DNA of 64,000 nucleotides from Pseudopedobacter saltans DSM 12145 (GTDB lineage Bacteria; Bacteroidota; Bacteroidia; Sphingobacteriales; Sphingobacteriaceae): contig NC_015177.1 of the NCBI RefSeq assembly GCF_000190735.1, positions 4,216,001-4,280,000 of the forward strand, read 5' to 3'. A program made the translations under genes and the position numbers. The notes under the pieces are model-generated. The model made no database searches. It was not told the DNA's origin and saw only the letters and a program-made list of their open reading frames with translations. This document shows, one piece after another, positions 1-25,156 of the stretch (position 1 is its first letter; every line of letters starts with the position of its first letter).

Positions 1-1545
1 TACGGTATTTCATTTATCGATGAAAATCAGGCCAAAGCAAATTTAGCCCGTGAAATAAAAGATTTTGATGTAGCTAGGGTGCAGAACAAAGGGAAAGAGG
101 TTTGGAATGAAAGCTTAGGGAAAATTACGGTTAGCGGGAACTCCGAATCAGATAAACACGTTTTCTACACTTCACTATACAGAACTTTTGAGCGTCCGGT
201 AAATATTTCGGAAGACGGAAGATACTTTAGCGGTTTTGACGGGGAAGTGCATAAAGATGGCGGCCGCCCTTTTTATACAGACGATTGGATCTGGGATTCG
301 TACAGAGCCCATCATCCGTTAAACGTATTGATAGACGGGAAGAAAGAAGGCGATATACTGAATTCCTTTGTCAGGATGTCCGAACAGATGGACAATTTTT
401 GGCTGCCAACTTTTCCTGAGATCAATGGAGATAGCAGAAGGATGAATTCCAATCATGGTGTAGCCTCTTTGCTGGATGCTTATGAAAAGGGAATAAGAAC
501 CTTTGATTTTGAAAAAGCGTATCAGGCAGCTAAAGGCGCTTTGACAGAAAAAACATTGGCTCCATGGTCTGCAATGCCAGCCGGAAAGCTGGATGAATTC
601 TTTAAAGGGAAAGGATATATCCCTGCTTTGTATCCAGGGGAAAAGGAAACAATCCCGGAGGTGCATCATTTCGAAAAGAGACAGCCAGTAGCTGTTACCT
701 TGGGTACCTCCTATGATTTATGGTGTTTGGCACAAATGGCCAGAATACTTGGACATCAGGAAGATTATCAGCTATTTATGAAGCAGTCTTTTAACTATCG
801 CAATCTCTTTAACGAAAATACCAGGTTCTTTCACCCTAAAGATGACAAAGGGAATTTTATCGAACCTTTCGATTATGTCCGTTCCGGAGGGCAGGGAGCA
901 AGGGAATATTACGGAGAAAACAACGCCTGGATATACAGGTGGGATGTACAGCATAATATTGAAGACCTGATTAGACTGATGGGGGGGAAAGAACAGTTTG
1001 TGAAATACCTTGATGATATGTTCAACCAGCCTTTAGGCGATTCTAAATTTAGTTTTTATGCACAATTGCCGGACCATACAGGCAATGTAGGCCAGTTTTC
1101 CATGGCCAATGAGCCCTCTTTGCATATCCCATACCTGTATAACTATGCAGACCAGCCGTGGAAAACGCAAAAAAGAATCAGAACACTTATCCATCAATGG
1201 TTTAGGAACGATTTAATGGGCGTTCCGGGAGATGAGGACGGAGGGGGGCTTTCTTCTTTTGTGGTATTCTCCCAGTTAGGATTCTATCCTGTGACACCGG
1301 GAATTCCCGTTTATACAATAGGAAGCCCTTTCTTTGAAAAATCGGTAATTAAACTGACTGGAGGAAAGGAGTTCACGGTTATCGCGAATGGTGTTTCTAA
1401 TACAAATAAGTACATACAATCGGCCCGGCTTAATGGAAAAGTTCTGAATAAAACCTGGTTTGCACAGCATGATATCGCAAACGGAGGACTTCTAGAATTA
1501 GAAATGGGACCATTGCCCAATAAGGCCTGGGGTATTGAAAAGTAG
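1..1545 (+). CDS. GH92 alpha-mannosidase, C-terminal part (5' end outside window)
   Basis: Exo-acting, calcium-dependent alpha-mannosidase family; members trim mannose from N-glycans, yeast mannan or mannosyl phosphodiesters, usually in the periplasm or on the surface. The frame is open from base 1, so the start lies upstream and about 514 codons are visible. Family marks seen: WDSYRAHHPL near the visible start, ENNAWIYRW, NEPSLHIPYLYNY, and the C-terminal GDEDGGG followed by GFYPVTPG. From memory, the family motif EGNxWQY carries the general acid. Here it reads ENNAWIY with Glu kept, which favours an ordinary mannosidase over the phosphodiester type, where I recall Gln. The usual GNDDCGQ is GDEDGGG here, an uncommon form. 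It sits just upstream of a sugar kinase and permease and 3 kb from a phosphatase-rich SusCD locus, which suggests mannose-containing glycans as substrate. Family assignment is firm; linkage specificity is not visible. Confidence 0.93.
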   Translation, partial: YGISFIDENQAKANLAREIKDFDVARVQNKGKEVWNESLGKITVSGNSESDKHVFYTSLYRTFERPVNISEDGRYFSGFDGEVHKDGGRPFYTDDWIWDSYRAHHPLNVLIDGKKEGDILNSFVRMSEQMDNFWLPTFPEINGDSRRMNSNHGVASLLDAYEKGIRTFDFEKAYQAAKGALTEKTLAPWSAMPAGKLDEFFKGKGYIPALYPGEKETIPEVHHFEKRQPVAVTLGTSYDLWCLAQMARILGHQEDYQLFMKQSFNYRNLFNENTRFFHPKDDKGNFIEPFDYVRSGGQGAREYYGENNAWIYRWDVQHNIEDLIRLMGGKEQFVKYLDDMFNQPLGDSKFSFYAQLPDHTGNVGQFSMANEPSLHIPYLYNYADQPWKTQKRIRTLIHQWFRNDLMGVPGDEDGGGLSSFVVFSQLGFYPVTPGIPVYTIGSPFFEKSVIKLTGGKEFTVIANGVSNTNKYIQSARLNGKVLNKTWFAQHDIANGGLLELEMGPLPNKAWGIEK

Positions 1546-1631
1546 ATAATCAGGAATATTTAGTCATATTTCTATCTGATAGATAAAAGACTTATTTACA
1601 ATAATAAATATTCATGAGGGTTGGAAGATAG

Positions 1632-1692
1632 ACGGCGAATCTTGTCGAAGACATCCCTTGATTCTTAGGAAGAGAGGGGATCGCCGTTTTTT
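1632..1692 (+). terminator. Rho-independent terminator after the GH92 gene
   Basis: ACGGCGA at 1632-1638 pairs with TCGCCGT at 1681-1687, directly followed by a T run to 1692. Inside, ATCCC and GGGAT can form a second helix. It separates the GH92 transcript from the kinase and permease genes. Confidence 0.65.
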
Positions 1693-1699
1693 AATACCC

Positions 1700-1730
1700 G
1701 ATAACGCGTTTGCCTGATAACGTGTTCAGG
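1700..1730. promoter_or_regulatory. Candidate operator upstream of the sugar kinase
   Basis: Two direct copies of GATAACG[C/T]GTT start at 1700 and 1716. The second lies inside CCTGATAACGTGTTCAGG (1713-1730), an imperfect palindrome with arms CCTGA/TCAGG and a central CG, a layout common for LacI-type sites. It lies 25 bases before the kinase ATG. No regulator gene is next to it, so the binding protein is unknown. Confidence 0.3.
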
Positions 1731-1754
1731 ACAATACATAAATGGCAATTAAAT

Positions 1755-2633
1755 ATGAATAATATAGTAGCGGGAGTAGATATCGGAGGCTCCCACATTA
1801 CCGTGGCCCTGGTGAATTTGGATACTTTGGAGATAATTGATAAAAGTCTTATCAGAGAAAGGGTTGACTCGGCTGCTGTTGCGGAAGAAATTATTATAGC
1901 ATGGTGTAGTGCAATAGCTAAATCGTTTAATACCTGCCCACAGAGCGAAAAAAAATTAGGTATAGCAATGCCGGGTCCGTTCGACTATGAAAATGGCATA
2001 AGCTATATCAAAGACCTGCACAAATATGATTCACTGTACGGTCTTAATGTAAAGGAGTTGATTGCCTACCATCTGGATATCCCAAAAGAAAATATTCGGT
2101 TAAACAATGATGCTGCTTGTTTTCTTCAGGGCGAAATATATAAAGGTAGTCTTGAAGGTTGTTCAGTAGCGGTTGGACTAACCCTAGGTACGGGTTTGGG
2201 ATCGGCCTATATGAAATCTGGGGAGTCTTTCGATGCTAATCTGTGGTGTACCCCGTATAAAGGAGATATTATTGAAGAATGTATATCCTCCCGCTGGTTT
2301 GTCAGACAATTCCAGCAAAGGGCAGGTAAATCTGTAAAAGACGTAAAGGAAATTGTAGAGAAATACCCTGATCATGAGATTACGAAGGAACTGTTTGAAG
2401 AGTTTAGTGACAATCTTGCTTCATTTTTAGCATATTTTATTCAAAAAGAACAGGGAGAGGTAGTGGTTCTTGGCGGGAATATTTCGAAAGCCAAAGATTT
2501 CTTTATTGATAATATAAAACAAAAACTATATGAATCGGTTGGGAAAGTTATTCCTATTTACCTTTCTGTTCTTGGAGAAAGAGCCGCTTTAATAGGAGGA
2601 GCCGCACAGTTCCATACCTTAAAGCAATTATAA
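1755..2633 (+). CDS. ROK-family sugar kinase (glucokinase/mannokinase-like)
   Basis: Cytoplasmic ATP-dependent hexose kinase of the ROK family, 292 residues from this start. The N-terminal phosphate-binding motif GVDIGGSH, the catalytic stretch NNDAAC with its Asp, and a glycine-rich LTLGTGLGS are present. I chose ATG 1755, not the in-frame ATG at 1710, because ROK proteins begin a few residues before the GVDIGG motif and the extra 15 residues look unlike protein. The zinc site usual in ROK proteins (CxCGxxGC) is absent; the region reads CTPYKGDIIEEC. The gene ends 18 bases before a sugar permease, so the pair probably imports and phosphorylates one sugar, perhaps mannose released by the adjacent GH92 enzyme. 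Substrate cannot be read from sequence. Confidence 0.85.
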   Translation: MNNIVAGVDIGGSHITVALVNLDTLEIIDKSLIRERVDSAAVAEEIIIAWCSAIAKSFNTCPQSEKKLGIAMPGPFDYENGISYIKDLHKYDSLYGLNVKELIAYHLDIPKENIRLNNDAACFLQGEIYKGSLEGCSVAVGLTLGTGLGSAYMKSGESFDANLWCTPYKGDIIEECISSRWFVRQFQQRAGKSVKDVKEIVEKYPDHEITKELFEEFSDNLASFLAYFIQKEQGEVVVLGGNISKAKDFFIDNIKQKLYESVGKVIPIYLSVLGERAALIGGAAQFHTLKQL

Positions 2634-2651
2634 ACATAACTAATTATATAC

Positions 2652-4265
2652 ATGGGAAACCTAAATCAAACTAACAAGACATATGCTTCTGCACTGTATA
2701 CCCTGGTAACGGTATTTTTTTTCTGGGGTTTTGTAGCGGCTTCGAATGGCATTTTTATTCCGTTCTGTAAAGCACATTTCGATTTAACACAATTTGAATC
2801 TCAGTTGATCGACTTTACATTTTATGGAGGATACTTTATAGGATCACTGATCCTTTATTTTGCCTCGCAATTATTAAAGGTAGATATACTGAATAAAATA
2901 GGATTTAAGAACGGGATTATTTACGGGCTTGTGATATCGGCAATAGGTTCCATAGCAATGGTTCCCTCGGTAAACATAGGCTCTTTTGGATTGATCCTGA
3001 CTTCATTTTTTATTATCGCATTGGGTTTTTCATTACAGCAGATAGCTGCAAATCCCTTCGCGGTAGCGCTGGGTACACCAGAAACCGGTGCCGACAGGTT
3101 AAATCTAGCAGGCGGGGTAAACAACTTTGGTTCCCTTTTAGGGCCGATTATAGTGAGTATAGTGCTGTTTGGGACTGCGGCTGGGGCAGAAGCGGCACAA
3201 GTGGAGATAACGGCAATAAACTCTTTGTATTATATCCTAACGGGATTGTTTATAGCTGTCGCTATCTTCTTTTCAGTATCAAAACTGCCGGATGTACGAA
3301 GTAACGAAACAGTAGAAGCCAGCCCTAGAACAAATACACCTTTATTGGTGATGTTACTGGCTTTTATATTGATTTTAGCTGCCCATCCACTGGAATCGCT
3401 GACAGGGATATCCGCCTCTTTATATGTTTATTTTTCATTAGTTATTATTGTGTTAACATTATTCCTAAGTTTCTCTGCATCGAAAAAGAATCCCGAAGGA
3501 TGGGGAGCCATGAAATACCCGCAATTAATGCTGGGTATGCTAGCTATCTTTACCTATGTAGGTGTAGAAGTGAGTATTCAGAGTAATTTTGGAGCTTTGT
3601 TGCATACCCCCGAGTTCGGCTCCTATCCGGAAGCGACTATTGCGCCATTTATTTCTCTCTATTGGGGGAGCTTAATGATAGGCAGGTGGACAGGTGCTGT
3701 CTCGGTATTTAATATCAGCAAAACTGCAAAAAGAATTCTTACGGTAATTGTTCCTTTTGTAGCATTTGGAGTTATTTTGGTATCCAACCATATCACGGGT
3801 ACCAATATAGATATGATGTATCCTTATGCAATATGTGTGGCTATTATGATTTTAGGCTTCTTTTACAGCCAGGAAAAGCCGGCTAGAACATTGGCTACGT
3901 TCTCCGTCCTTGGAGTTGTTGCAATGGTTATCGGACTTTTATCAAGCGGGGATCTTGCTATATATGCATTCATTAGCGGAGGCTTGTGCTGCTCTATTAT
4001 GTGGCCCAGTATATTCTCCTTATCTGTTACCGGTTTAGGTAAGTATACCGGTCAGGGATCTTCATTCCTGATTATGATGATTTTGGGAGGCGCTATAATC
4101 CCACCGGTACAGGGAATATTTGCAGATAACAGCGGAATCCATAAATCATATTTTATCCCGGTTATCTGTTTTATTTATCTGCTGTTCTTTGCCTGGAAGG
4201 TAAGCAAGGAGTTGAAAAAACAGGGATTTGACGTTAGCGAAATCCAGACAGAAGGAGAACATTAA
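2652..4265 (+). CDS. MFS sugar permease, FucP/GluP-like
   Basis: Inner-membrane proton-coupled sugar importer of the FHS group of the major facilitator superfamily. The protein has 537 residues and about twelve hydrophobic segments. The first helix reads [19 protein letters not shown], close to the conserved start of fucose and glucose/galactose permeases, and the mid-region has [12 protein letters not shown] and [15 protein letters not shown], both typical of GluP/FucP. It is longer than FucP (about 440), mainly through an extended central loop plus extra hydrophobic segments around residues 225-290. It follows the ROK kinase by 18 bases and is the last gene of that short operon. The transported sugar is probably a hexose; mannose is an inference from context. 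Confidence 0.88.
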
Positions 4266-4407
4266 CATTAAACTTTATTTTTCATCTATTTTAACGAAGA
4301 AATTAATCAGGCTTTCGAGGATTTATACTATCTGGTATCAGTACCAATATGTAGAAAAACTGAAGCCTGGTAGATTATCTCACCCGCAGAGAGGACTAAG
4401 AACACGC

Positions 4408-4456: not shown

Positions 4457-4715
4457 CTTTACGGTTTTTAAAATATATTTCGACTCACCTATACAAAAGT
4501 TCCTGTCGGTACTAGATTTAACAACTTTGCTTTTCCAAAGGGTTCTTGTTTTTTTAGATAGACCGGGAAAAATCATCTATCCTTTCAGAAATGATGTGGA
4601 GTCTTTATGCTTAGGTCTTTTTCTGCTATGTGAAGGAATTTCTCTCCGTTATAGTGAAGATGAGCGGTACTCCTGCGCTTCGATTTTTTCTAAAAAGTGC
4701 CTTTAAAGTTTAAAA

Positions 4716-4737
4716 TTAATCTTTTATTAATCTTTTA
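4716..4737 (+). promoter_or_regulatory. PHO-box-like direct repeats upstream of the first SusC
   Basis: Two perfect head-to-tail copies of TTAATCTTTTA sit at 4716-4726 and 4727-4737. The 11-bp period (7-bp word plus 4-bp spacer) is that of PhoB and PhoP boxes in other bacteria. The same element, with three copies, precedes the second SusC. It lies 169 bases before the SusC ATG. The role is inferred from this arrangement and from the phosphatase genes downstream. Confidence 0.5.
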
Positions 4738-4906
4738 TTAGACCCCCTTGTGTACACTTGCCGAAGCAAATTAATAGAACAATTATGTTTTTATATTGTA
4801 CCAGGGGCCCTTGTCATCCTGACGGACTAACCAAATTGTACCGGCATAATTTAATGCCTTATACAACTGTCAATTTTTATTTAAATAACTCCAAGAATAG
4901 AATTAT

Positions 4907-7900
4907 ATGAAAATAATTAAATACTTATTAATAATAATAGGTTTGCATCCATTCTATTTGAATGCGCAGCAAAATGTTATTAGCGGTAAAGTCATCGATT
5001 CTTCTGATGGTTCGCCTCTTCCAGGGGTGAGCGTTCTTGTTAAAACCGAGAACGGACAAAAGTCGGGGACCATGACAAATACTGAAGGCAATTATACTAT
5101 CCAGGTATCGGCAAATGCTATTGCTCTGGTCTTCAGATCCGTTGGAATGCAAGATGCAGTAGAGAAAATTAATGGAAGAAAAACAATTAACGTACAATTA
5201 TTCCCTCAGGATACCAAACTATCGGAAGTGGTTGTTACTGCTTTGGGCATAGAAAGAGAAGTTAAGTCGTTAAGCTATAGTACTCAGGGAATAGATGTTG
5301 ACGCGATGAACGAAACTAAGAGTACAAACATTTTGAATTCTTTGTCGGGTAAAATTGCAGGTGTACAAATTGTTCCTCCTGGACTTAATACAGGATCTGC
5401 CCGTATAGTAATCAGAGGAAACAGTTCACTTACAGGTAATAATCAGCCGTTATTCGTTGTGGATGGGATGCCGATAGATAATACCGCTGGTGACGGAAAT
5501 ATCGATTACGGAAATAATGCTGCAGACATAAATTACGAAGATGTTGAAAGCATAGAAGTACTAAAAGGCCCAAATGCATCAGCTTTATATGGATCCAGGG
5601 CAGCTAATGGCGTAATTTTAGTTACTACAAAAAAAGGAACACCCAAGTTTAAAGTATCATTAAACTCTAGTTTGATGTTGCAAAGCCTTACAGAGTTCCC
5701 CGAATACCAAAATGCTTATGGGGTAGGTACTTCCTTCTATATCGACAATAAAAATTCTATACCGCAGGCTATTAACAATTACCGAAGCTGGGGATCTCCA
5801 ATGCTGGGACAGCCTTATGTGGCTCTAAATGGAGAGATTAAACCATATCTGCCGCAACCGAACAATGTAAAAGATTTTTATTCTAAAGCCTCTTTACTTA
5901 CCAATGCCTTGGCAGTGGAAGGCGGAACACCCGGGAATACGTATCGCTTTGCATACACCAATTATAAAGGTACAAGCGTGGTTGATGGGTTTAATTTGAA
6001 CGGAAAGCATTCCGCGGATTTACGCCTGCAAAATACTTTTTCTAAGATAGTTAAAGTCGATAGTAAGATAAGCTTTATTCGAAATATAGTGGAGAATAGA
6101 CAATATTCAAATTCGAATGGGCGAAATCCGACAAATCTATATACCCATATGGCAAGAAGTACCGACCTCGCTGAACTTATGCCTTACAAAGATGCTGAAA
6201 CCGGAAAAGAAATCGGGACACACCGGAATTTCAGTAATCCTTACTGGGTAATCAATGAAAATCCAAATAAGGATACAAAAGATAGAGTAATTGCTTCAAT
6301 CAATCCGTCTATGAATATTAATAAATGGCTGGATTTCAAGGGGCGTTTAGGAGCAGATGTTTATGTGTGGGATGGGTTTGAGTTTAATAATGCAGGTTCA
6401 ATCGTCGCTAGTAACCCGGATGGTTATATGAGAACCTTTAATACCAAACAACAAAACATCAACCTTGAAGGTATTCTTACAGCAAAAAGAAAGATGAGTG
6501 AGTTTTCGATATTGGCTAACTTGGGCGCGAGTAGTTTTAGTTCGAATTATGAAAAAAGAGAACAACGTATCAGTTCACTTCTTCAACCTGGCCTAATAAA
6601 TATTTCAAATGCAAAGGAGTTTCCTACGGTATCTCAGGATATTCGCAAGAAGAAGCTCAATTCAGTATTCGGATCCCTATCTGTTGGATATAAAGGCTAT
6701 GCTTATATAGATGTTACTGGAAGAAACGATTGGTCTTCGACTCTTCCTGAAGGTAACAACTCTTATTTCTATCCTTCAATTGGAGGAACTGTTATAGTAA
6801 GTGATCTGCTTGGTCTGAAAAGCGGCTTTTTAAGTTTCGCTAAATTGAGAGGATCTTATGCTGTTGTAGGTAACGATACAGATCCTTATCGCTTAGCCCA
6901 GGCTTATACTTTTAATGGCTTTTTCAATGGTGCTCCAATAGCTTCCTTAGGAACTACCATGAATAACCCTGATTTAAAGCCAGAGCGCACAGCTTCGTAT
7001 GAAATGGGAGTAGATTTACGGTTTTTTAATAATCGTCTGACATTTGATGGAACTTACTATAATGCGGCAACTACCAATCAGATTGTTTCTGCACAGTTAC
7101 CTGCTTCCAGTGGTTATCAGCGCCGTTTGTATAATGCCGGTAAAATAAAAAACTGGGGTTTTGAAGCAACAGCAAGTGCTAAAATCATTAATTCAAAGAA
7201 CTTCTCCTGGACAAGTCAAATCAATTATTCAAAAAATAACTCCGAGGTTGTTGAACTGATTGATGGAATAGACCGCTTTCAATTGAACAATTATTCCAGT
7301 TATTTATATGTATATGCCGAGGTGGGTAAACCTTATGCTTATCTGCGAGGCTTAGGTGTGGCCAGAGATGCGCAAGGTCATATGCTGCTCGAAGACGGAG
7401 GATCGTTGTTGGTAAAAGATAATGATATGGCTTTTGGAACAGCAACACCCGATTGGCTTGGGGGAGTGTATAACACTTTCAGATACAAACGTTTCGACCT
7501 GGGCTTGCTGTTTGATTTCAAGATGGGCGGAATAATGTATTCTCGGAGTATATCTGCTATGTTAACTAACGGAGTTTTAGCGGAAACGCTGTATGGAAGG
7601 GATGACTATTATCGTAATACAGTTATATGGGGCGAAAGCGGAAGTGAACTAAGTGGTGGCGCTAAGTGGGATGCTTACTTTGCGGATGGAACAAAGAACG
7701 ATAAATTTGTTACTCCTCAAAACTATGAATATGCCCGTCCTAATTACGCTGAATTTGTAATCTATGATGCTTCTTACATTAAATTGAGGGAAATAGCACT
7801 CGGATACAATTTACCTGCATCCATTTTGAAAAAAACTCCAATTAAGAGTGCGAGATTCTCTTTATCAGGTCGTAATCTTGCGATTTTATACAGAAAAACA

Positions 7901-14660: not shown

Positions 14661-14723
14661 AGACTGCGGTCAATAGCAGATATGGTACATGAATTTTAAA
14701 AAAAAACATAATTCGGGTAGCTA

Positions 14724-14756
14724 TTAATCTTTTATTAATCTTTCATTAAACTGTTA
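14724..14756 (+). promoter_or_regulatory. PHO-box-like direct repeats upstream of the second SusC
   Basis: Three contiguous 11-bp units: TTAATCTTTTA (14724-14734), TTAATCTTTCA (14735-14745) and TTAAACTGTTA (14746-14756). A 26-base stretch (14723-14748) matches 4715-4740 with one difference. TAGAATTG at 14761-14768 is a -7-like element one base off TAnnTTTG, and the SusC ATG is 51 bases downstream of the repeats. The spacing fits an activator of the PhoB class; the binding protein is inferred. Confidence 0.52.
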
Positions 14757-14807: not shown

Positions 14808-17800
14808 ATGAAAATAATCAATTACTTAACCATCTTGTTGTGGCTTATTCCATTCTATTTAAGTGCGCAGCAAATTACCGTTAGTGGTATAGTAACCGAT
14901 GGATCTGACGGATCTCCTTTACCTGGTGTGAATGTGTTTATTAATACTAAAGAAGGCAAAAAAGGCGGTACAATAACTAACTTAAGCGGTAGTTACACGT
15001 TAAAAGTTCCGGCCAATGCCACGGAATTGGTCTTTAGTTTTATGGGGATGAGTACTGTTACAGAACAAATCAACGGTCGTTTGGTGATTAATGTTGGTAT
15101 GTCTTCTGAGAGTACAGAGTTACAGAGCGTCGCGGTTACCGCATTAGGTATTAAAAGAGAAACCAAAGCTTTGAGTTATTCCCGGCAGGGTATGGATATT
15201 TCTACACTGACTGAAGCGCCGTCTACCAATATTATGTCCTCTTTATCAGGTCGACTGGCTGGTGTACAGATAACTCCCCCGTCAACTAATACTGGTTCGG
15301 CCCGTGTTGTGATTCGTGGAAATAATTCGATTACAGGAAATAACCAGCCACTTTTTGTAATCGATGGTATACCGGTAGATAACGAAACCGGAGATGCCAA
15401 AGTAACTACTTCAGGAAATAATAACCTTGATTACGGAAATATAGCTGCCAATATCAATCCGGAAGATGTAGAGAGCATCGAAGTTTTAAAAGGGCCTAAC
15501 GCCGCTGCATTATATGGGTCCAGAGCGGCAAATGGGGCAATATTAATTACTACTAAGCGATCTTCGGGAGTTAAGTTTAAAGTTTCTTTTAATTCTAATT
15601 CTACTTTTCAACGTATTTCAGAATATCCGGAATACCAGGATATGTTTGGAGCAGGTAATAGTTTTAAACTAGAGGGATCTGGCTCAACAAATAATCCCGA
15701 GCGTATACCAGACCTTGGAGTTTTTTACAGAAGCTGGGGTGCTCCCATGCTGGGGCAGCCAGTTATCAGTATAAATGGAAAGCCAAAACAATACGTAGCT
15801 CAGCCAAATAATGTTCAGGATTTTTATCAAACGGCAGCCATGCTAACAAACTCACTGGCTATAGAAGGAGGGAACACCGAAAATAATTATAGGTTTTCAT
15901 ATACTAATTACTCGGGAGGGAGTGTTGTAGCAGGCATTAATGACAATAGAAGGCACAATGCCAATATCCGTGTCCTTAACAAATTTAATAGATGGTTGGA
16001 TATGGATTCCAAAGTTACTTTTATCAGGAATAAAGTTACCAACAGGCAGTATATGAACGGAAGTACTAAAAATCCAGTTTATCAATATGCCTTTATGGTA
16101 CGTGATGATCAGCTTTCAGAGTTCAGTGAGTATAAAAATATTTATGGTAATGAAATAAATACACATCGTGAATTCTTAAATCCATATTGGGCCATACATG
16201 AAAATCCAAATCAGGATACAAAAAATCAACTGCTTGGCGCTTTTAACGTAAACGCCAAAATTAATAACTGGCTTAAAGTTAATGCCAAATTGGGAACGGA
16301 GATGTATTGGCTAAATGGTTATACTTTTAACAATAAAGGAGCTCAAAGTAATCCTAATGGAAGTATGAGTACCATGAATAATACACTGCAAAGTACCAAT
16401 GCAGATGTAATTTTATTTGCTAATAATAGCTTTGGCAAATTATCCGTTAACTCATTTATTGGAGCTGGTCGTTTTCAAACCATAGTCGGTAAAAATAGCC
16501 AGAGTATCAATTCTTTGATTCAACCAGGCTTAATTAATTTGTCGAATTCTGGTGAATTTCCGGTCGTTAGCCAATTTAATTCGGATAAAATAATTTATTC
16601 AGTATATGGTTCCACGTCATGGGGATATAATGGATATCTGTATTTAGATGTAACGGCAAGAAATGACTGGTCATCTACGTTACCAGTTGGTAACAACTCT
16701 TATTTTTATCCGTCTGTTGGAGGATCTTTTGTGTTTACGGACGCTTTTAAAGGGATTCCTAAGAGCATTCTGTCATTTGGAAAAATCCGAGCATCGTATG
16801 CAGTCGTAGGAAATGATACCAGTCCTTACCAGATAGTGCCAACTTATACATTTGACGGTATTTATAACAGTCAGGCTTATGCGTCTTTATCATCTACTTT
16901 TTTTAATCCTGGTCTGAAGCCGGAAAAAACAGGTTCTGTAGAATATGGTTTAGATTTGCGGTTTTTGAAAGATCGTATCACTTTTGGAGCCACTCACTAC
17001 AGAACTTCCACCACAAACCAGATTGTAACCGCTCAGATTACACCGGCAAGTGGTTATACCCGTCGCTATTATAATGCAGGGGAGATTCAAAACTGGGGAA
17101 CAGAGATTGTTTTGTCGGGAAGCCCGATAAAGACCAGAAATTTTTCGTGGAATATCTTAACCAATTATGCTAAAAATAATTCCAAAGTAAAAAGCCTTGT
17201 AGAAGGAGTAAATAGCTTTCAATTGAATTCATGGTTTGGCCGATTGTTGGTATTTGCAGAAGTTGATCAGCCTTATGGGGTTATCAGAGGTGCAGGATGG
17301 AAGCGCGATGATATGGGGCGCAAACTGGTGTCTGAAAGTGGACTTCCTATAGCCGATCCTAATATTGTTTTAGGTAATGCGCTGCCCGACTGGACTGGAG
17401 GAATAAGCAACTCTTTACAGTATAAAAGATTTAACCTGAATTTCCTGATAGATATTCGAAAAGGTGGGCGTTTCTATTCAGGTACCTACAGACGTTCGTA
17501 CATTTCAGGGGCACTTGCCAGCACATTAGAGGGAAGAGAAGATTATTATCTGCATAGTTATATCTATGGAGAGTCTGCAGCCAGTTTAACGGGAGGCTTT
17601 ATTTTTAAGGATGCTTACTTCGAAGATGGTACACCTAATAATAAATATATCTCAACGCAATCTAATGGTTTTTCAAATATTGACGAAATGCAAATGTTTG
17701 ATGCTTCGTTTGTTAAGCTACGAGAAGTCGTTTTAGGATATAACCTTCCTGCTAAAGTTTTAAAGAAAACCTTCATTTCAAACGCCCGAATATCCTTATC

Positions 17801-17948
17801 CGGAAGAAATCTGTGGACTATTCATAAAAATGCTCCCAAAGGAATTGATCCGGAAGCCAGTGTGACCTCGGGTAACGGGCAGGGAATAGAATATGGTTCG
17901 TTACCTCCATCTTCGACATATGGAGTAGACTTAAGGTTAACCTTTTAA
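14808..17948 (+). CDS. SusC/RagA-family TonB-dependent outer-membrane transporter (cassette 2)
   Basis: Outer-membrane active importer of 1046 residues and paralog of the SusC at 4907. Signal peptide 1-20 (ending LSAQ), carboxypeptidase-regulatory-like domain (about 22-100), plug (about 115-250, with VESIEVLKGPNAAALYGSR) and a long barrel ending in LRLTF. The two SusC proteins share blocks along the whole length, such as ARNDWSSTLP and GNDTxPY, while surface-loop regions differ, so they probably bind related but not identical ligands. It has its own upstream repeat element and starts an operon with SusD and two glycoside hydrolase-like genes. No sigma/anti-sigma partner nearby. Confidence 0.94.
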   Translation: MKIINYLTILLWLIPFYLSAQQITVSGIVTDGSDGSPLPGVNVFINTKEGKKGGTITNLSGSYTLKVPANATELVFSFMGMSTVTEQINGRLVINVGMSSESTELQSVAVTALGIKRETKALSYSRQGMDISTLTEAPSTNIMSSLSGRLAGVQITPPSTNTGSARVVIRGNNSITGNNQPLFVIDGIPVDNETGDAKVTTSGNNNLDYGNIAANINPEDVESIEVLKGPNAAALYGSRAANGAILITTKRSSGVKFKVSFNSNSTFQRISEYPEYQDMFGAGNSFKLEGSGSTNNPERIPDLGVFYRSWGAPMLGQPVISINGKPKQYVAQPNNVQDFYQTAAMLTNSLAIEGGNTENNYRFSYTNYSGGSVVAGINDNRRHNANIRVLNKFNRWLDMDSKVTFIRNKVTNRQYMNGSTKNPVYQYAFMVRDDQLSEFSEYKNIYGNEINTHREFLNPYWAIHENPNQDTKNQLLGAFNVNAKINNWLKVNAKLGTEMYWLNGYTFNNKGAQSNPNGSMSTMNNTLQSTNADVILFANNSFGKLSVNSFIGAGRFQTIVGKNSQSINSLIQPGLINLSNSGEFPVVSQFNSDKIIYSVYGSTSWGYNGYLYLDVTARNDWSSTLPVGNNSYFYPSVGGSFVFTDAFKGIPKSILSFGKIRASYAVVGNDTSPYQIVPTYTFDGIYNSQAYASLSSTFFNPGLKPEKTGSVEYGLDLRFLKDRITFGATHYRTSTTNQIVTAQITPASGYTRRYYNAGEIQNWGTEIVLSGSPIKTRNFSWNILTNYAKNNSKVKSLVEGVNSFQLNSWFGRLLVFAEVDQPYGVIRGAGWKRDDMGRKLVSESGLPIADPNIVLGNALPDWTGGISNSLQYKRFNLNFLIDIRKGGRFYSGTYRRSYISGALASTLEGREDYYLHSYIYGESAASLTGGFIFKDAYFEDGTPNNKYISTQSNGFSNIDEMQMFDASFVKLREVVLGYNLPAKVLKKTFISNARISLSGRNLWTIHKNAPKGIDPEASVTSGNGQGIEYGSLPPSSTYGVDLRLTF

Positions 17949-17958: not shown

Positions 17959-19569
17959 ATGAAAAATACATATATAAAATTACTGTTTTTATTGTTTACG
18001 CTGTCGTTTACCTCTTGTCAGAAAGAACTCGAAACGACTAATATCAATCCAAATAATCCTAACAGTGTAGATCCGGAATATTTACTAAATACTTCGGTAC
18101 TTAAGACAATAAATTTATTCGGCGGAGATATGCGCCGCGTGACTTTGTCGCACTATTCTAATTACGTATCCGTAGGGGGCGGACAGCTGCAGCGTTACTA
18201 TACCTTTGCCAGTACAGTAAACAGTTATTGGCAAACCTTATATGTTTCTTGCCTGCAACCAGTTCATCAAATACAATTAAATTATGCGGATAATCCGTCT
18301 TACAAGAACCGGGTAGCCATAGCCAGAATTTTTGAATCGTATATATATGCAAACATAGTTGCTATATGGGGGAGCGTTCCAAAAACTAATGCTTTAACTG
18401 GAGAGGTATACATCTCTTATGATAAAGAAGAAGATATTTATTTAAACCTTTTGAATGATTTAAAAGAAGCAGCAAATGCTATTGATCTTAAAGGGGATAT
18501 CTATCCGGCAAATGCAGACCCTATATTTGCGGGTAATCTGCTGAAATGGAAAAAGTTTGCCAATACTTTGCGCCTGCGTATCGCATTGCAAATTTCGAAT
18601 GCTTCTTCTGGTAAAGCAGCAGAAATTGTTGGGGATGTTTTATCTAATGAGGTTAATACTATAAGTTCTGCTGATGAAACAGCAAATGCATTTTGGGGGG
18701 CAACTTCAGATACCTGGAGCTTCTTATATAATTATAATGTGGTAGAGGCACAGGCGAATGCAGCAAACCTGAATGTTATAGGAGAGTCGTTGATACAGCA
18801 TATGTTGCCTTATAATGATCCTCGTTTACCAGTATATGCAAAACCAGCTAAACAAGGTCCTTTTGTTGGGCAATATGCAGGGCAACCCAAGGCATCACAG
18901 CTACCAAAGGGAGTGAGCCTTCCTAATGGAAACCCACATTCATCATTAGCGCCTGCAGATTATTCTCAGATAGGAGATTATTTCCTTAAATCCAATGCAG
19001 AGTACGTGTTTTTATCTTTTGAGGAAGCATGCTTTCTAAAAGCAGAAGCTGCTTTAAAAGGGTGGGGAGGAGCTAAGACAGCCGAACAATATTATAATGA
19101 AGGGGTTACGGCTTCAATGAAAAAATATGGCATCGCTCAGCAGGCTATTAATAACTATTTGGCTCAACCAGGAATTAAATGGAATTCTGCTGTAGATACT
19201 ACCGGTAGAGGACCCGAATTTCAAGATTTCTTAGGTATTACTACCAGTGCTATTCTTCAGCCGGATCCTTTTCGACAAATTGTGATGCAAACCTGGTTAG
19301 CCGGTTTTTACAATGCAATGGACGCCTGGACATTGATCAGAAGAACACAGATTTTAGAGTTCCCCCCACATTTTAATCCAGATGGTGGTGAAGGGGGGAC
19401 AGTAGGGTATGCTTATATCCCACAGAGATTAAACTATCCGCCAAACGAATATCAGGTTAATAAGGCTGCGGTAAACAGTGCCTTATCCTGGTTAAATGGT
19501 CCCGATGAATTGAAAACGAAACTATGGTTCGCTTTGCCCGTGAAAAGAAATCCTGCTTTACCACAATAA
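17959..19569 (+). CDS. SusD/RagB-like surface lipoprotein (cassette 2)
   Basis: Ligand-capturing lid for the preceding SusC, 536 residues. The lipobox is FTSCQKE (Cys about 20). SusD-like_2 features match the cassette 1 SusD: NINPNNPNSVDPEYL, KNRVAIARIFESYI, LLKWKKFANTLRLRIALQIS and EEACFLKAEAALKGWGG. It lies 10 bases after SusC and 11 bases before the next gene. Differences from its paralog concentrate in loops, such as the region before residue 330, in line with a shift in ligand. Confidence 0.92.
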   Translation: MKNTYIKLLFLLFTLSFTSCQKELETTNINPNNPNSVDPEYLLNTSVLKTINLFGGDMRRVTLSHYSNYVSVGGGQLQRYYTFASTVNSYWQTLYVSCLQPVHQIQLNYADNPSYKNRVAIARIFESYIYANIVAIWGSVPKTNALTGEVYISYDKEEDIYLNLLNDLKEAANAIDLKGDIYPANADPIFAGNLLKWKKFANTLRLRIALQISNASSGKAAEIVGDVLSNEVNTISSADETANAFWGATSDTWSFLYNYNVVEAQANAANLNVIGESLIQHMLPYNDPRLPVYAKPAKQGPFVGQYAGQPKASQLPKGVSLPNGNPHSSLAPADYSQIGDYFLKSNAEYVFLSFEEACFLKAEAALKGWGGAKTAEQYYNEGVTASMKKYGIAQQAINNYLAQPGIKWNSAVDTTGRGPEFQDFLGITTSAILQPDPFRQIVMQTWLAGFYNAMDAWTLIRRTQILEFPPHFNPDGGEGGTVGYAYIPQRLNYPPNEYQVNKAAVNSALSWLNGPDELKTKLWFALPVKRNPALPQ

Positions 19570-19580: not shown

Positions 19581-20648
19581 ATGAAAAAGATCTTATATAT
19601 ATTATGCCTTGCCGGATTCATTGTATCCTGCAAAAAAGACCCTCAACTAATCGACAAAGAAAAGTATGTATATGACATTCCGCCGGTTAGATTAAGCACA
19701 AACGCTATTGTTGGCACTTATTATTTTAACTATAGCAGTTCCGACTGGAATAAAGTTCATTCAGATACCTCTTTAGTGGTTCCTGCCGGTGGAAAATCAT
19801 ACAATGCAGTAACCGATGCTACTGTATTTCCCAAACAATTGGCCTGGGCCGATGAAGCAGGTGTGGACTACATGATCTTTAAATGGAATGCTTCGGCTAC
19901 AGATAATTCATTGCTAAATGCATTTGCCACAAGGCGTACTACACAAAATGTTAAAATGGTAATTGGTTATAATACTGCTCATCTAAGTGCAACCAATGCA
20001 TCGCCTTTAACAGGAGCAAAATTACAAACGATGATTACCGAATTTAAATCCTTAATAACACAACATATTAGCAAGGAGTACTATTATAATATAGCCGGAC
20101 GTCCTGTGATTTTAATTACGCCTTTAAATTTATCGTCGTCTGCGTTAACAAGTATTGATTATAAGGTGGTTATGGAAGCCTTGCGGGCAGAATTGAAAAC
20201 CATCGGTGTTAACCCGTTCTTTATTGGAGAACTGGCTACGGGATGGACAGCTCCGGCTAATTTTAGTGCCGATGCCTTGGCTTCAATGGACGCTATTGTG
20301 GTTTCTAACTGGAACACTGCAGATTTTGATAGATGGTGGGCGTTTTACAGCTTTGTTGACCTGAACTGGCAAAACTGGAAAGCATCTTTAGATAAACTTA
20401 ATGTAGAGTTTGTTCCTTGCATATTTCCGGGTTATAATGAACCCAGTGCTGCAACACAACGAATTATAGACAGAACAGAAAAGAACTATGTGGATTATGC
20501 CAATGTCGCTAAACGCAATATGGGAGTAAATCAAATGGTGATTATTAACTCTTGGAATGATTTTTCTAAAGGGACTGCACTTGAGCCATCAAAAAAGTAT
20601 AATAAGCAATTTCTTGAGCTCACAAAAAGAGAGTTTAAAGTTAATTAG
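19581..20648 (+). CDS. GH71/GH99-like (WbsX-like) TIM-barrel lipoprotein, cassette 2
   Basis: 355 residues, paralog of the gene at 9638. Start ATG 19581 gives a lipoprotein signal (FIVSCKKD, Cys about 16); the longer frame begins inside the SusD gene. Shared blocks include IVGTYYFNY near the barrel start, IAGRPVILI, VPCIFPGYNE and the final INSWNDFSKGTALEP. The last motif has Asp where WbsX-like proteins have Glu, so an acidic residue is kept here, unlike the cassette 1 copy with Asn. Probably a surface or periplasmic glycan-processing enzyme or glycan-binding relative. Function remains inferred. Confidence 0.7.
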   Translation: MKKILYILCLAGFIVSCKKDPQLIDKEKYVYDIPPVRLSTNAIVGTYYFNYSSSDWNKVHSDTSLVVPAGGKSYNAVTDATVFPKQLAWADEAGVDYMIFKWNASATDNSLLNAFATRRTTQNVKMVIGYNTAHLSATNASPLTGAKLQTMITEFKSLITQHISKEYYYNIAGRPVILITPLNLSSSALTSIDYKVVMEALRAELKTIGVNPFFIGELATGWTAPANFSADALASMDAIVVSNWNTADFDRWWAFYSFVDLNWQNWKASLDKLNVEFVPCIFPGYNEPSAATQRIIDRTEKNYVDYANVAKRNMGVNQMVIINSWNDFSKGTALEPSKKYNKQFLELTKREFKVN

Positions 20649-20699
20649 ATTATGAATTTATGTGTAGTCGTTGGTTTTTCCGATACTAAAAATTGAATT

Positions 20700-21977
20700 A
20701 TGAAGAAGACATTTAATCATTTACTGGTCCTCACCTTTTTTGTGTTGATTTTTAATGAGCTAAGCGCTCAGAAAATATCAACTCCCAAAAATAAATGGAA
20801 GCATATGTCCTACAATGGACTCGTTATGGTAGGGTATCAGGGGTGGTTTAACGCAGAAGGCGACGGCGCAGATAGAGGATGGAATCATTATCAGGGAAAA
20901 AATAACAGATTCGAGCCCGGGAACTGTAGTATTGATATGTGGCCGGATATTGCAGAATACCCTGTAAAATATAAAACTTCCTTTGTCCATGCCGATGGAA
21001 CACCGGCTTATGTATTCAGTTCCTATGATGAAAGTACCGTCGATTTACACTATAAATGGATGCAACGATACAGTATAGACGGTGCCTTTTTACAACGGTT
21101 TGTAACCACTTTAAAAGATCCGAAGGGAGCTAATCACTATAAAAAATTGCTAGGATCCGTTTTAAATTCAGCAAGAAAATACGATAGGGCTGTATCCATT
21201 ATGTACGACTTGTCGGGTATGCAAAAGGAAGATTATAAAATGGTAATCGAAGACTGGAAAAGGATTATTGACGAATACAGGCTGAATAAGAAAGAAGCTT
21301 ATGAGAATTATCTGTTTCATAATAATAAGCCTTTGGTTGCAATATGGGGAGTTGGTTTTAACGACAATCGGAAGTATGGATTATCAGAAGTGAACAAGCT
21401 AATAGATTTTTTTAAAAATGATCCGATATACGGCGGATGTTCAATATTGTTAGGTGTCCCTACATGGTGGCGCGAATTGAAATACGATACAGAAACTGAT
21501 CCATATCTGCACACTTTGATAAAAAGGGTAGATATTATTCATCCGTGGTTTGTAGGAAGGTATAACGAAGAAACTTATCCCGATTTCAACGAACGCATAA
21601 AAAAAGATATTGTCTGGAGTAAGGCAAATAACATAGACTATGTTCCTGTCGTTTTTCCCGGTTTTAGCTGGAAAAATATGCGTCCCGACGATCCATTTAA
21701 TGCCATACCCAGAAATGGAGGCAATTTTTTCTGGAAACAGCTGGCAGGGGCTATAGAAGCGGGAGCTAGTATGATCTATGTGGCGATGTTTGATGAAATT
21801 GATGAGGCAACAGCCATCTTTAAAGTGGCCAAAGATGTTCCGGTAGGTTTGTCCCGCTTTGTACCTTACGAAAAAGAGGAACCTTCAGATCACTATATGT
21901 GGCTAACCGGTCAGGCAGGAGGAATGCTGAAAAAGGAAATTCCCTTCCAAAAAAACATGCCTTATCGAACTTATTAA
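20700..21977 (+). CDS. Secreted GH71/GH99-like glycoside hydrolase
   Basis: 425 residues with a Sec signal (about 1-23, ending LSAQ) and a single TIM-barrel domain of the GH71/GH99-like group often annotated as xylosidase/arabinosidase. Motifs: GLVMVGYQGWFNAEGDG at the barrel start, AFLQRFVTTL, IMYDLSGM, VVFPGFSWKNM, and AMFDEIDEATAIF near residue 365, whose Asp/Glu cluster is typical of the family. Characterised Bacteroidota GH99 enzymes are endo-alpha-1,2-mannosidases or mannanases, so an endo-acting role on a mannan-like glycan is plausible but not shown. It is a more distant relative of the lipoproteins at 9638 and 19581. It follows the latter by 51 bases and precedes PafA by 176 bases. 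Confidence 0.8.
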   Translation: MKKTFNHLLVLTFFVLIFNELSAQKISTPKNKWKHMSYNGLVMVGYQGWFNAEGDGADRGWNHYQGKNNRFEPGNCSIDMWPDIAEYPVKYKTSFVHADGTPAYVFSSYDESTVDLHYKWMQRYSIDGAFLQRFVTTLKDPKGANHYKKLLGSVLNSARKYDRAVSIMYDLSGMQKEDYKMVIEDWKRIIDEYRLNKKEAYENYLFHNNKPLVAIWGVGFNDNRKYGLSEVNKLIDFFKNDPIYGGCSILLGVPTWWRELKYDTETDPYLHTLIKRVDIIHPWFVGRYNEETYPDFNERIKKDIVWSKANNIDYVPVVFPGFSWKNMRPDDPFNAIPRNGGNFFWKQLAGAIEAGASMIYVAMFDEIDEATAIFKVAKDVPVGLSRFVPYEKEEPSDHYMWLTGQAGGMLKKEIPFQKNMPYRTY

Positions 21978-22153
21978 TCAAAAATTTATATAAGTCTAAA
22001 TTCAAAATTAAAAAGTCAAAAAAGCATAAACCTTTATTTACAATCAGAACAGGATGTTCTTGTATGATCACAAATCAAACTCTATAATAACCAAACAATA
22101 GCACATAGATATATCGACATGTTTATGTTGCTTATAAATAATATTAAGAAAAC

Positions 22154-23803
22154 ATGAGAAAGAAACTTAACATCTCCGTAATTGCTATCATGCTGCTGTT
22201 AGTCAGCCAATTCACATTTGCTCAAAAAAAGGGTCAGAATGAACTGCCCAGACCAAAGCTTGTAGTGGGGATAGTCGTAGACCAAATGCGCTGGGATTAT
22301 CTGTATAGATACTACGATAGATATCAAAATGATGGCTTTAAGCGTATGTTGAATGAAGGATTTACCTGTGAAAATACATTTATTGATTATGTTCCTACCG
22401 TTACGGGTATTGGCCATAGTTCGGTTTACACAGGAACCGTCCCTGCGGTACATGGTATCGCCGGAAATGATTTTATTATTAGGGCAACCGGTGAAACGAT
22501 GTATTGTGCTGGAGACGATAAAGTAGAGACAGTAGGGAGCTCTTCAAAAGCTGGAAAAATGTCGCCACGGAACCTATTGTCTACAACCATTGGAGATGAA
22601 TTAAAATTAGCCACTAATTTCAGATCTAAAGTTATTGGCATTGCTTTGAAAGACCGCGGAGCAATTTTGCCGGTAGGCCATGCTGCCGATGCAGCATATT
22701 GGTTTGATTCATCTACAGGTGGGTGGATAACCAGTACTTATTACATGAATCAACTTCCGGAATGGGTAAAAAAGTTCAATAGCCAAAAGTTACCGGAAAA
22801 ATATTTGAAACAGGATTGGAATACGCTTTATGATATTAAAACCTACGTTCAGAGTACAGCAGATAATACACCTTATGAAGGGCTGTTTGATGGTCAGGAA
22901 GCACCGGTATTTCCAATAAAGACGTCTCATATGTTTAAAAAAGATTTGGGAATACTTCGTACTACTCCTTTTGGAAATACATTTACTCTGGATATGGCTA
23001 AAACAACAATAGAAAATGAGAAATTAGGTCAGGGGAGTGTAACCGATATGCTGGCTGTAAGTCTTTCGTCTACTGATTATATTGGACACAAATTTGGAGT
23101 AAATGCCATAGAAATAGAAGATACTTACCTGAGACTGGATAAAGATCTGGCTGATTTCTTTAAATTCTTAGATCAAAAGATTGGAAAGGGAGAATATACC
23201 GTTTTCCTTACTGCGGACCATGGAGCAGCACACAATATAAAGTTCAGTGTAGATAATAAGTTGTTATCGTCAAACTGGTCTGCCAGTAAGGTTCAAAGAG
23301 AAATGAATAAGAGACTAGAGGAGACTTTTAAAGTAAAAGATTTGGTATTGAGTATAAAGAACTCGCAGGTTCATTTTAATTACACTATTCTAAATGGAAA
23401 TAAGCTTGATGAAGATGAGGTACGTAAGGTATGTACAAACTATCTTAAAACGCAGCCAGAAATTGCTTTTGTTATTGATCTGAATAAAATTGGAGACGCT
23501 GCTGTTCCGGAAGAAATAAAGAAAAGAGTTGTTAATGGGTATAATCAACATCGTTCAGGAGGAATTCAAATTGTTCTAAATCCGGCTGTTTTTTCAAGTG
23601 GCAGCTCAGGAACTTCGCATAGTGCATGGAATCCATATGATTCACACATTCCTTTAGTGTGGATGGGTTGGGGAATTGAAAAAGGTCGTACCAATAAACA
23701 AACACATATGACTGATATAGCTCCAACAGTTTCGGCATTATTACGTATTCAAATGCCGAATGGCTCTATAGGTCATCCTATAGAAGAAGTAATGAAAAAA
23801 TAA
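22154..23803 (+). CDS. pafA: PafA-type alkaline phosphatase (type I phosphodiesterase/NPP superfamily)
   Basis: Secreted zinc-dependent phosphomonoesterase of 549 residues, the length of the Elizabethkingia enzyme. Signal peptide about 1-23 (ending TFAQ). Metal and active-site residues line up: Asp43 in GIVVDQMRWDY, nucleophile Thr84 in PTVTGIGHSSVYTG, Asn105 in GNDF, and Lys166 and Arg168 in ALKDRG. These correspond to T79, N100, K162 and R164 of PafA as I recall them. Later come STDYIGHKFG, TADHGAA and GTSHSAWNPYDSH. PafA enzymes of plant-associated Bacteroidota are reported to work even at high phosphate. It lies in cassette 2 after a GH99-like gene; no 11-bp PHO-like repeat is seen directly before it. 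Confidence 0.9.
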   Translation: MRKKLNISVIAIMLLLVSQFTFAQKKGQNELPRPKLVVGIVVDQMRWDYLYRYYDRYQNDGFKRMLNEGFTCENTFIDYVPTVTGIGHSSVYTGTVPAVHGIAGNDFIIRATGETMYCAGDDKVETVGSSSKAGKMSPRNLLSTTIGDELKLATNFRSKVIGIALKDRGAILPVGHAADAAYWFDSSTGGWITSTYYMNQLPEWVKKFNSQKLPEKYLKQDWNTLYDIKTYVQSTADNTPYEGLFDGQEAPVFPIKTSHMFKKDLGILRTTPFGNTFTLDMAKTTIENEKLGQGSVTDMLAVSLSSTDYIGHKFGVNAIEIEDTYLRLDKDLADFFKFLDQKIGKGEYTVFLTADHGAAHNIKFSVDNKLLSSNWSASKVQREMNKRLEETFKVKDLVLSIKNSQVHFNYTILNGNKLDEDEVRKVCTNYLKTQPEIAFVIDLNKIGDAAVPEEIKKRVVNGYNQHRSGGIQIVLNPAVFSSGSSGTSHSAWNPYDSHIPLVWMGWGIEKGRTNKQTHMTDIAPTVSALLRIQMPNGSIGHPIEEVMKK

Positions 23804-23846
23804 TTGTTAAAGGCTTGTAGCTATTTGATACTGGCCATCGATCTTC

Positions 23847-23890
23847 AGAGAAGAAAGGCAATCGTAGAGAATCTTTTCTTCTCTTTAATT
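23847..23890 (+). terminator. Hairpin downstream of pafA
   Basis: AGAGAAGAAA (23847-23856) and TTTCTTCTCT (23875-23884) are perfect 10-bp arms with an 18-base loop, followed by an AT-rich TTAATTT tail. It probably ends or attenuates the cassette 2 transcript before the last phosphoesterase gene. Confidence 0.5.
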
Positions 23891-23905
23891 TAAAATTTTT
23901 ATATT

Positions 23906-25156
23906 ATGAAATTTCTACTTTCATTCATTATACTACTTTCTACGTTTTGGCTATCCGAACTGCAGGCACAAGGTGTACATTTGAGTTGGTATAGCAATGA
24001 TGAAAAAAATAATACATCAAATAGTATTGCAGTTACCTGGATGGGGAATACATCGAATGAGAGTATCTATTATGGGACCGATAGTAGTAAATTGAAGAAT
24101 AAAGCACCTTTGGAAATTAAGTATTCCAATGAATTGGGGCTATATACTTTTAAGAGTAAAATACAAAAGCTAAAGCCTGATACCTATTATTTCTATAGAA
24201 TTGGAACAAGCCTTGCCCAAAATCCGGTTTATCATTTTAAAACGGCGCCCAAGGTAGGTACAGCGAAAAAGGTGGTGGTTGGTATATGGGGCGATACTCA
24301 GGATAATAAAGGCAATTTTAATTTTGTACAGACTGATTCTATCCTGGGCCAGATGGCGAAATATCCACTTCATTTCACACTTCATATGGGAGATATTGTA
24401 GAGAATGGATCCGTTATAAAAAGCTGGAAGAAATTTTTCGACGTTTCCCAGCCAATAAACGCAAATTTTCCATTTATGCCGGTTACAGGTAACCATGATG
24501 TAATCAATGATAGTAATAATGCAGATTTTCAAAAGCCATTTCCGGTCTTTTACGATCTTTTTAATCTTCCAGAAAATCAGCTAAACTATTCATTTGATTA
24601 TGGCAATACGCATTTTGTTGCGGTTAATTCGGGAGTAGCACAAAAAGCCTCTCTGGAAGGAAAAGTACTTTTCGGTGTAAATTCAAAAGAATACAATTGG
24701 CTGGAAGCTGATCTGGCGAAAGCCCGAAAAAATAAAAATATAAAGTGGGTTGTGGTTTTCTGTCATTATCCGGTATATGCTTATGGAGTAAGCTTAGTAA
24801 CAGGCTGGCAGGAAAACCTTAAACTTCTATTGGATAAATATAAAGTTGATTTGTGCCTGTCAGGACATAGACATGTTTATGAAAGGCATAAAGCAATACG
24901 AGGCGCGGACATTTTCGAATCGATGGATATAAACGTTTATGATAATCCTAAAGGTACTGTTTATATTACCAATGGCTCAGCAGGAGGATCTCTTCAGGGG
25001 ATTGGTGGTAGCAAGTCTTCTACCATACTATTTACCCCCTCAGAAAGGATTTATACCTATGCTGTTATGGAGTTAGATGGAAATGAGATCAAATATGAAG
25101 TATTTGATAAAGACAATAGGAAAATAGACTACTTTAAGATTGTTAAAAGTAAATAA
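23906..25156 (+). CDS. Secreted purple acid phosphatase-like metallophosphoesterase
   Basis: 416 residues: signal peptide about 1-21 (ending LQAQ), an FN3-like beta-domain (about 25-112, with SIAVTWMGN), then a metallophosphatase core with GIWGDTQ, LHMGDIVENG, VTGNHDV, VFCHYPVYAYG and LSGHRHVYERH. It resembles the PAP-like protein at 11918 but lacks its C-terminal extension. A hairpin lies between it and pafA, so it may be only partly co-transcribed. It is the last gene of the phosphatase-rich region; the next gene is on the other strand. Expected to hydrolyse phosphate esters outside the cytoplasm. Confidence 0.87.
   Translation: MKFLLSFIILLSTFWLSELQAQGVHLSWYSNDEKNNTSNSIAVTWMGNTSNESIYYGTDSSKLKNKAPLEIKYSNELGLYTFKSKIQKLKPDTYYFYRIGTSLAQNPVYHFKTAPKVGTAKKVVVGIWGDTQDNKGNFNFVQTDSILGQMAKYPLHFTLHMGDIVENGSVIKSWKKFFDVSQPINANFPFMPVTGNHDVINDSNNADFQKPFPVFYDLFNLPENQLNYSFDYGNTHFVAVNSGVAQKASLEGKVLFGVNSKEYNWLEADLAKARKNKNIKWVVVFCHYPVYAYGVSLVTGWQENLKLLLDKYKVDLCLSGHRHVYERHKAIRGADIFESMDINVYDNPKGTVYITNGSAGGSLQGIGGSKSSTILFTPSERIYTYAVMELDGNEIKYEVFDKDNRKIDYFKIVKSK

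Follow-up and report, generated by a model that had tools for sequence, protein, structure and literature searches.

A phosphatase-rich double SusCD locus in Pseudopedobacter saltans, a candidate utilisation system for phosphorylated glycans

The window, a stretch of 64,000 nucleotides from Pseudopedobacter saltans DSM 12145 (positions 4,216,001-4,280,000 of a 4.64-Mb single-contig genome), opens inside a cluster of about 26 kb that belongs to one series of genes, all in the same direction: REG, GH92, ROK, MFS, SusC1, SusD1, G99a, MPP1, PAP1, MPP2, SusC2, SusD2, G99b, G99c, PafA, and PAP2 (Table 1). Pfam and NCBIfam support each gene in the inventory of a first-pass annotation, which is correct: two SusC/SusD pairs (cassettes A and B), GH92, a ROK kinase with an MFS permease, three GH99/WbsX-like proteins, and five exported phosphatases. 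With adjacent susC- and susD-like genes and carbohydrate-active enzymes (CAZymes) alongside, the cluster has the gene content of a polysaccharide utilisation locus (PUL). Intergenic gaps within the cassettes measure 10-59 bp; around MPP1, PAP1, and MPP2, which are embedded in cassette A, they are 25-59 bp. Wider gaps lie upstream of GH92 (583 bp), ROK (209 bp), SusC1 (641 bp), SusC2 (147 bp), PafA (176 bp), and PAP2 (102 bp).

Related loci were collected from one genome-collection scan (7 loci) and from genome searches with a G99 profile. Only the best candidates per genome were scored (5 in the phylum draw and in the window's own family, 7, 10, and 14 in three other families, and 9 in the MPP search), so all genome counts are lower bounds. 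Close matches (E < 1e-130), here called tier 1, occur in 11 genomes and on a short Cytophagales contig (L006), which makes 12 loci in stretches of unequal length (4.5-54 kb). The other 25 loci, which pass a limit of E 1e-20 with values between 1e-27 and 1e-62, form tiers 2 and 3 and were examined in 20-kb stretches. The search in the window's own family returned a close G99 match in 6 of 399 genomes, the window genome included, and in none of the 17 further members of its genus that were covered. Close matches were found in 3 of 294, 1 of 204, and 1 of 140 genomes of the three other families, counting the genome by which each family was picked. In the phylum-wide draw, with the limit set at 1e-20, the window genome was the one hit among 395. 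The SusCD-G99 cassette is rare (at least 11 genomes and one contig fragment), and its sporadic presence suggests horizontal transfer. Because it recurs in other genera and families, the grouping of its genes is not a matter of chance.

The association with phosphatases separates the tiers. All 12 tier 1 loci have a match to the hidden Markov model (HMM) of MPP, within or beside the cassettes, whereas the MPP, PAP, and PafA HMMs matched none of the 25 tier 2 and 3 loci; as these models were built from tier 1 members, the latter count is the informative half of the comparison. Pfam scans of 18 tier 2 and 3 proteins named no phosphatase, other phosphatase families not having been searched for in those 25 loci. 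By best family at 38% identity or more, MPP1-type genes are present in 11 of the 12 tier 1 loci, MPP2-type in 6, PAP2 in 9, and PafA in 5. Among 201 genomes of the window's family, the MPP search (E 1e-30 or better, at most 9 candidates each) found matches in two, both carriers of the locus; the other four tier 1 genomes of the family evidently lay outside this draw.

In the G99 tree, tier 1 forms a single clade (100/100) within which cassettes A and B are old sister groups; their SusC proteins are 49-52% identical in the rows compared, and both cassettes occur together in 6 of the 12 loci. Tier 2 and 3 loci carry GH92 (14/25 by HMM), with GH2, GH3, GH43, and esterases among the proteins scanned, so the substrates there are glycans. 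Some of these phosphatase-free relatives may process sugars oxidatively, to judge from three products of tier 2 loci (L057:5837-8059, L058:5325-6062, and L064:10757-14401): a DUF7133-cytochrome c protein, one of the ThuA type, and a GH2 protein that matches a 3-keto-disaccharide hydrolase below threshold. The tier 1 locus of G608 holds, between its G99c and PAP1 relatives, a gene for a MauG-like di-haem peroxidase (L049:945-2768).

The GH99-like proteins, which the first-pass annotation had listed as three enzymes, fall into two groups. Each of G99a and G99b directly follows a SusD and has a lipobox (called by regular expression, with likely starts at 9641 and 19581). The best solved match of G99a is 5ngw (OpGH99A), and the E value improves to 3.1e-38 with a profile of G99a and G99b. 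The G99a segment NSWNNFQTG aligns with SFNEWHEG of GH99 enzymes, so that NEWHEG is replaced by NNFQTG in G99a and by NDFSKG in G99b. Both catalytic Glu (E333 and E336 in the reference, BxGH99) are thus missing from these two proteins; they are absent in 18/18 tier 1 rows and kept together in 0/43 rows of the whole G99 group, one Glu being kept in a few tier 2 rows. PDB titles list E333Q/E336Q (BxGH99) and E404Q (MANEA) as variants in the GH99 family, and in our alignment the E404Q chain carries Q at the first of the two positions. Robb et al. in 2017 reportedly described, to go by the title, a GH99-related protein lacking catalytic machinery, which we take to be 5ngw; OpGH99A presumably comes from Ochrovirga pacifica, out of that organism's sulphated-mannan PUL. 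Based on these features, G99a and G99b are probably non-catalytic surface glycan binders.

G99c differs from these two. Its E366 and E369 are invariant in 16/16 relatives, and in a Foldseek search with its predicted model (predicted local distance difference test 82) GH99 enzymes fill ranks 1-36, with target-normalised TM scores of 0.67-0.80, followed by 5ngw and then a GH71-type glucanase. Although G99c shares the fold and both Glu of the family, it is only 16-20% identical to solved GH99 enzymes in fold alignments. We predict that it is probably an endo-alpha-mannosidase/mannanase. A full-length WbsX-type GH99-like gene is also present elsewhere in the window genome, at G000:C1:2698860-2699924, among apparent glycosyltransferase genes (neighbours judged from the starts of open reading frames).

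GH92 has a lipobox-like GMAC, and its closest PDB entry is 6f8z (2.9e-92). The acid-Glu column and the GDED motif are conserved in the alignment; we take this Glu and the Asp of GDED to have their usual catalytic roles. MPP1 and MPP2 retain their metal-site motifs, and PafA scores 806 bits against an equivalog cut-off of 650 (NF042991). A second PafA gene lies elsewhere in the genome, at G000:C1:111701-113323; the PafA of the locus is therefore an extra copy.

Table 1. Coordinates of the genes and repeats of the locus. Plain numbers are window positions; E values are for the models or structures named.
Feature	Position	Strand	Remarks
REG, regulator-like gene	L004:12130-14706		Upstream of GH92
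GH92 alpha-mannosidase, possible lipoprotein	1..1545	+	C-terminal 514 of 751 residues; PF07971 1.5e-154
GH92, full gene	L004:15290-17545		751 aa; first 711 bp precede the window
ROK-family sugar kinase	1755..2633	+	PF00480 1.3e-19; alternative TTG start 1710
MFS sugar permease, GluP/FucP-like	2652..4265	+	TIGR01272 3.8e-57; 194.1 bits (below the cut-off, 202.55)
Triple 11-bp direct repeat (TTAAT, 11-bp spacing)	4715..4742	.	Within the 641-bp gap upstream of SusC1
SusC1, TonB-dependent outer-membrane transporter, cassette A	4907..8014	+	TIGR04056 9.6e-186
SusD1 lipoprotein (SusD-like_2), cassette A	8026..9627	+	PF12771 3.2e-64; lipobox
G99a, GH99-related lipoprotein	9641..10693	+	5ngw OpGH99A 6.6e-23
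MPP1, calcineurin-like metallophosphatase	10719..11858	+	Twin-arginine signal
PAP1, purple-acid-phosphatase-like	11918..13504	+	PF16656 + PF00149 (PAP-N + Metallophos); signal peptide
MPP2, calcineurin-like metallophosphatase	13530..14660	+	PF00149 4.1e-11; signal peptide; MPP1 paralogue, 31%
Triple 11-bp repeat upstream of SusC2	14723..14750	.	Only exact pattern match in the genome
SusC2, cassette B	14808..17948	+	Plug + CarbopepD_reg_2 domains (Pfam)
SusD2, cassette B	17959..19569	+	PF12771 1e-72 (SusD-like_2)
G99b, GH99-related lipoprotein	19581..20648	+	Catalytic-site region NSWNDFSKG
G99c, exported GH99-type protein	20700..21977	+	Both catalytic Glu (FDEIDEA)
PafA phosphomonoesterase	22154..23803	+	NF042991 1.5e-242; 5tj3 4.9e-189; signal peptide
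PAP2, purple-acid-phosphatase-like	23906..25156	+	PF00149 4.2e-18 + PF16656; signal peptide

The cluster ends with PAP2 at 25,156, beyond which lie a DUF4407 gene on the opposite strand and then a purD-like gene. Matches of the ROK protein to NCBIfam sugar-kinase models are far under cut-off, and Rfam at gathering thresholds gave no match anywhere in the window.

A triple TTAAT at 11-bp spacing lies upstream of GH92, SusC1, and SusC2. With up to one mismatch allowed, the 4.64-Mb genome contains 11 matches to the pattern, spread over 10 sites, compared with 3 matches for the reversed-pattern control, and three of the ten sites are the GH92, SusC1, and SusC2 promoters, the exact match (SusC2) among them. 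Within the window, 6 matches occur at two mismatches or fewer against 2.34 expected, a number reached by 3 of 100 shuffles. Taking a score of 13 out of 15 as the minimum, SusC has the repeat upstream of it at 18 of the 25 phosphatase-free loci, as do 7 of 17 tier 1 SusC upstream stretches (25/42 in total), against 0, 1, 6, and 0 of 42 for control spacings of 9, 10, 12, and 13 bp. Upstream stretches were compared with simple shuffles over 510 bp and, for the counts just given, with dinucleotide shuffles over 300 bp; a few single p-values are weak (0.055-0.095). The 7+4 geometry of the repeats would suit a PhoB-type box. We provisionally rejected a PHO-regulon reading, as the repeat also stands before SusC in phosphatase-free loci. 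This distribution points to a local regulator of the glycan type and not to a phosphate regulon, and it lends no support to induction by low phosphate. The seven other genome sites have no evident phosphate gene beside them, judged from the starts of open reading frames only and with no search for pst or pho genes.

The candidate for such a regulator is REG, which has a signal-like start, kelch-like repeats, and one further hydrophobic segment near 554-572. REG HMM matches occur in 7/12 tier 1 and 23/25 tier 2 and 3 loci; its relatives accompany the majority of loci L053-L066 and L072-L081, where SusC frequently has triple 11-bp repeats upstream. The domain scan gave no confident family for the REG tail. 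An assignment as a SARP-type activator was dropped, the C-terminal part having matched only BTAD at E 0.054, below the cut-off, and the putative winged helix in the tail is a reading from the sequence letters alone. A literature search for kelch- or SARP-type PUL regulators found nothing related, and REG is possibly an undescribed class of PUL regulator. Together, REG and the repeats may serve substrate sensing.

The link between REG and the repeat is not a clean one. G869 has REG (33%) and lacks the repeat, L064-L066 have REG (28-29%) and a spacing of 12 bp in place of the 11-bp repeat, REG is also present in L073 and L077 although both fall under the repeat threshold, and the repeat is absent before SusC2 of G541 and G628. 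At 12-bp spacing the triple repeat scores 15, 15, 14, and 15 in L064, L065, L066, and L077, three of which carry the most divergent REG. The repeat is also absent in G801 and G785, as well as upstream of the tier 1 SusC genes that stand beside sigma-like and FecR-like genes (G759, G783, G784, and SusC1 of G608), an identity checked by Pfam in G608 and judged by length and position in the other three. In L005, SusC carries an STN domain.

We read the locus, with slightly more confidence than doubt, as a PUL directed at a phosphorylated glycan that most likely contains alpha-mannose. A phosphatase of these families in 12/12 tier 1 loci and in 0/25 related PULs, together with GH92, G99c, the ROK kinase, and the permease, makes a phosphoglycan PUL the best fit; it would yield both sugar and phosphate from a substrate that we infer. 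SusD1 and SusD2, with the G99a and G99b lipoproteins, would bind the phosphoglycan at the cell surface, and SusC1 and SusC2 would import fragments, the two cassettes perhaps serving different sizes or substitution states. Periplasmic MPP1, MPP2, PAP1, PAP2, and PafA, whose families are clear and two of which have intact metal motifs, would strip phosphate. G99c and GH92, each with its catalytic residues in place, could then cut the alpha-mannose chain, and the hexose would enter metabolism via the MFS permease and the ROK kinase. REG, putatively membrane-anchored, may activate the GH92, SusC1, and SusC2 transcription units by binding the triple repeats. In the growth results of PMC8812569, the 6-phosphates of glucose, mannose, and fructose supported wild-type Flavobacterium johnsoniae as the only source of carbon and phosphorus, and a pafA mutant failed to grow; this need for PafA on sugar 6-phosphates, mannose 6-phosphate included, is consistent with the proposed removal of phosphate.

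The mannose part of our reading rests on GH92, on the GH99-type G99c, and on analogy with a marine PUL. The diatom C6-sulphated alpha-1,3-mannan PUL, with a version in Ochrovirga pacifica, is described in the relevant part of PMC13063451 as containing GH92, the GH99-related GH195, and two sulphatases. Like the locus here, this system of Flavobacteriia (Polaribacter and Ochrovirga pacifica) sets GH92 and an endo-enzyme related to GH99 beside enzymes that remove esters, a likeness drawn from these gene families; the ester-removing enzymes are sulphatases there but phosphatases here. The PULs for yeast alpha-mannan in Bacteroides have GH92 and GH99 families and include a phosphatase, whereas the present locus has two tandem cassettes and five phosphatases and, by Pfam scan, no GH76 or GH125.

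That lack of GH76 and GH125 is one of several points that weigh against the reading. Both the mannose and the polymeric nature of the substrate are deduced from gene content. As tier 1 is one clade, MPP in all 12 loci represents one inherited association, not 12 events, and these phosphatase families have broad specificity. G99c and GH92 are present (at 38% identity or more) in 6/12 and 5/12 tier 1 loci, fewer than the phosphatases, and neither was seen in the stretches read of G759, G783, and G784; by this comparison the conserved core is SusCD, a putative binder, and a phosphatase, not a mannosidase. Of the first-pass proposal, uptake of phosphorylated mannan-type glycans, the phosphoglycan part thus fits best, and the mannan part depends on these two less conserved families and the analogy.

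This core also suits an alternative that we judge unlikely, although it deserves serious weight: Pus-like phosphate scavenging, in which small organophosphates or sugar phosphates enter through the SusCDs and are hydrolysed by the phosphatases to free phosphate, and the glycosidases are accessory. In F. johnsoniae, the Pus clusters join SusCD to phosphatases and phosphodiesterases and are induced on phosphate depletion, PUSII includes a FecR-like gene, and the low-phosphate table lists a MauG-like gene, according to the sections of PMC8115612 on these clusters; correspondingly, G608 has its own MauG-like gene and an ECF sigma/FecR pair, with three more such pairs by length and position in G759, G783, and G784, which show SusCD, G99, and phosphatases. 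However, the same sections set PUSI and PUSII against CAZyme-holding PULs, and PusD1 there belongs to pf07980/pf14322, whereas our cluster has CAZymes (GH92 and GH99-type genes) next to its SusCD and phosphatases, SusD-like_2 proteins, and a putative local regulator. The repeat box, moreover, is common before SusC in phosphatase-free loci and has three of its ten genome sites in this locus, and Pfam scans show no phosphate transporter in the cluster.

Less probable still are phosphoglycans of glycolipids and anchors as the substrate (glycosylphosphatidylinositol anchors, glycosyl inositol phosphoryl ceramides, or phosphatidylinositol mannosides), which would need phosphodiester cleavage and an alpha-mannosidase. 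That the locus is an ordinary alpha-mannan PUL with phosphatase genes as accidental neighbours is hardly credible: PafA is common in Bacteroidetes in the passages of PMC8115612 and PMC8812569 that treat it, and the gaps before PafA and PAP2 are wide, but MPP1, PAP1, and MPP2 sit tightly inside cassette A, and the comparative data, with an MPP-family gene in every tier 1 locus and no hit in the remaining 199 genomes of the MPP search at the limits given above, largely refute it.

Our preferred phosphoglycan reading can be carried further, with doubt ahead of belief: tier 1 might be the first dedicated phosphoglycan PUL clade, matching the marine sulphated-mannan PUL but with phosphatases in place of sulphatases, a dead GH99 fold as phospho-mannan binder, and a kelch-type membrane regulator on triple 11-bp repeats, a class new for PULs. 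Among the open-licence papers listed by our searches, we recognised no phosphatase-rich GH92/GH99 PUL or phosphomannan-degrading system. Yeast phosphomannans are one example of phosphorylated polysaccharides, which hold carbon and phosphorus together. Testing the phosphoglycan reading would take a handful of proteins and substrates of a known class. If it is correct, a gene set dedicated to phosphorylated polysaccharides would link the literatures on carbon PULs and phosphate scavenging and would provide a sequence marker for phosphoglycan turnover.

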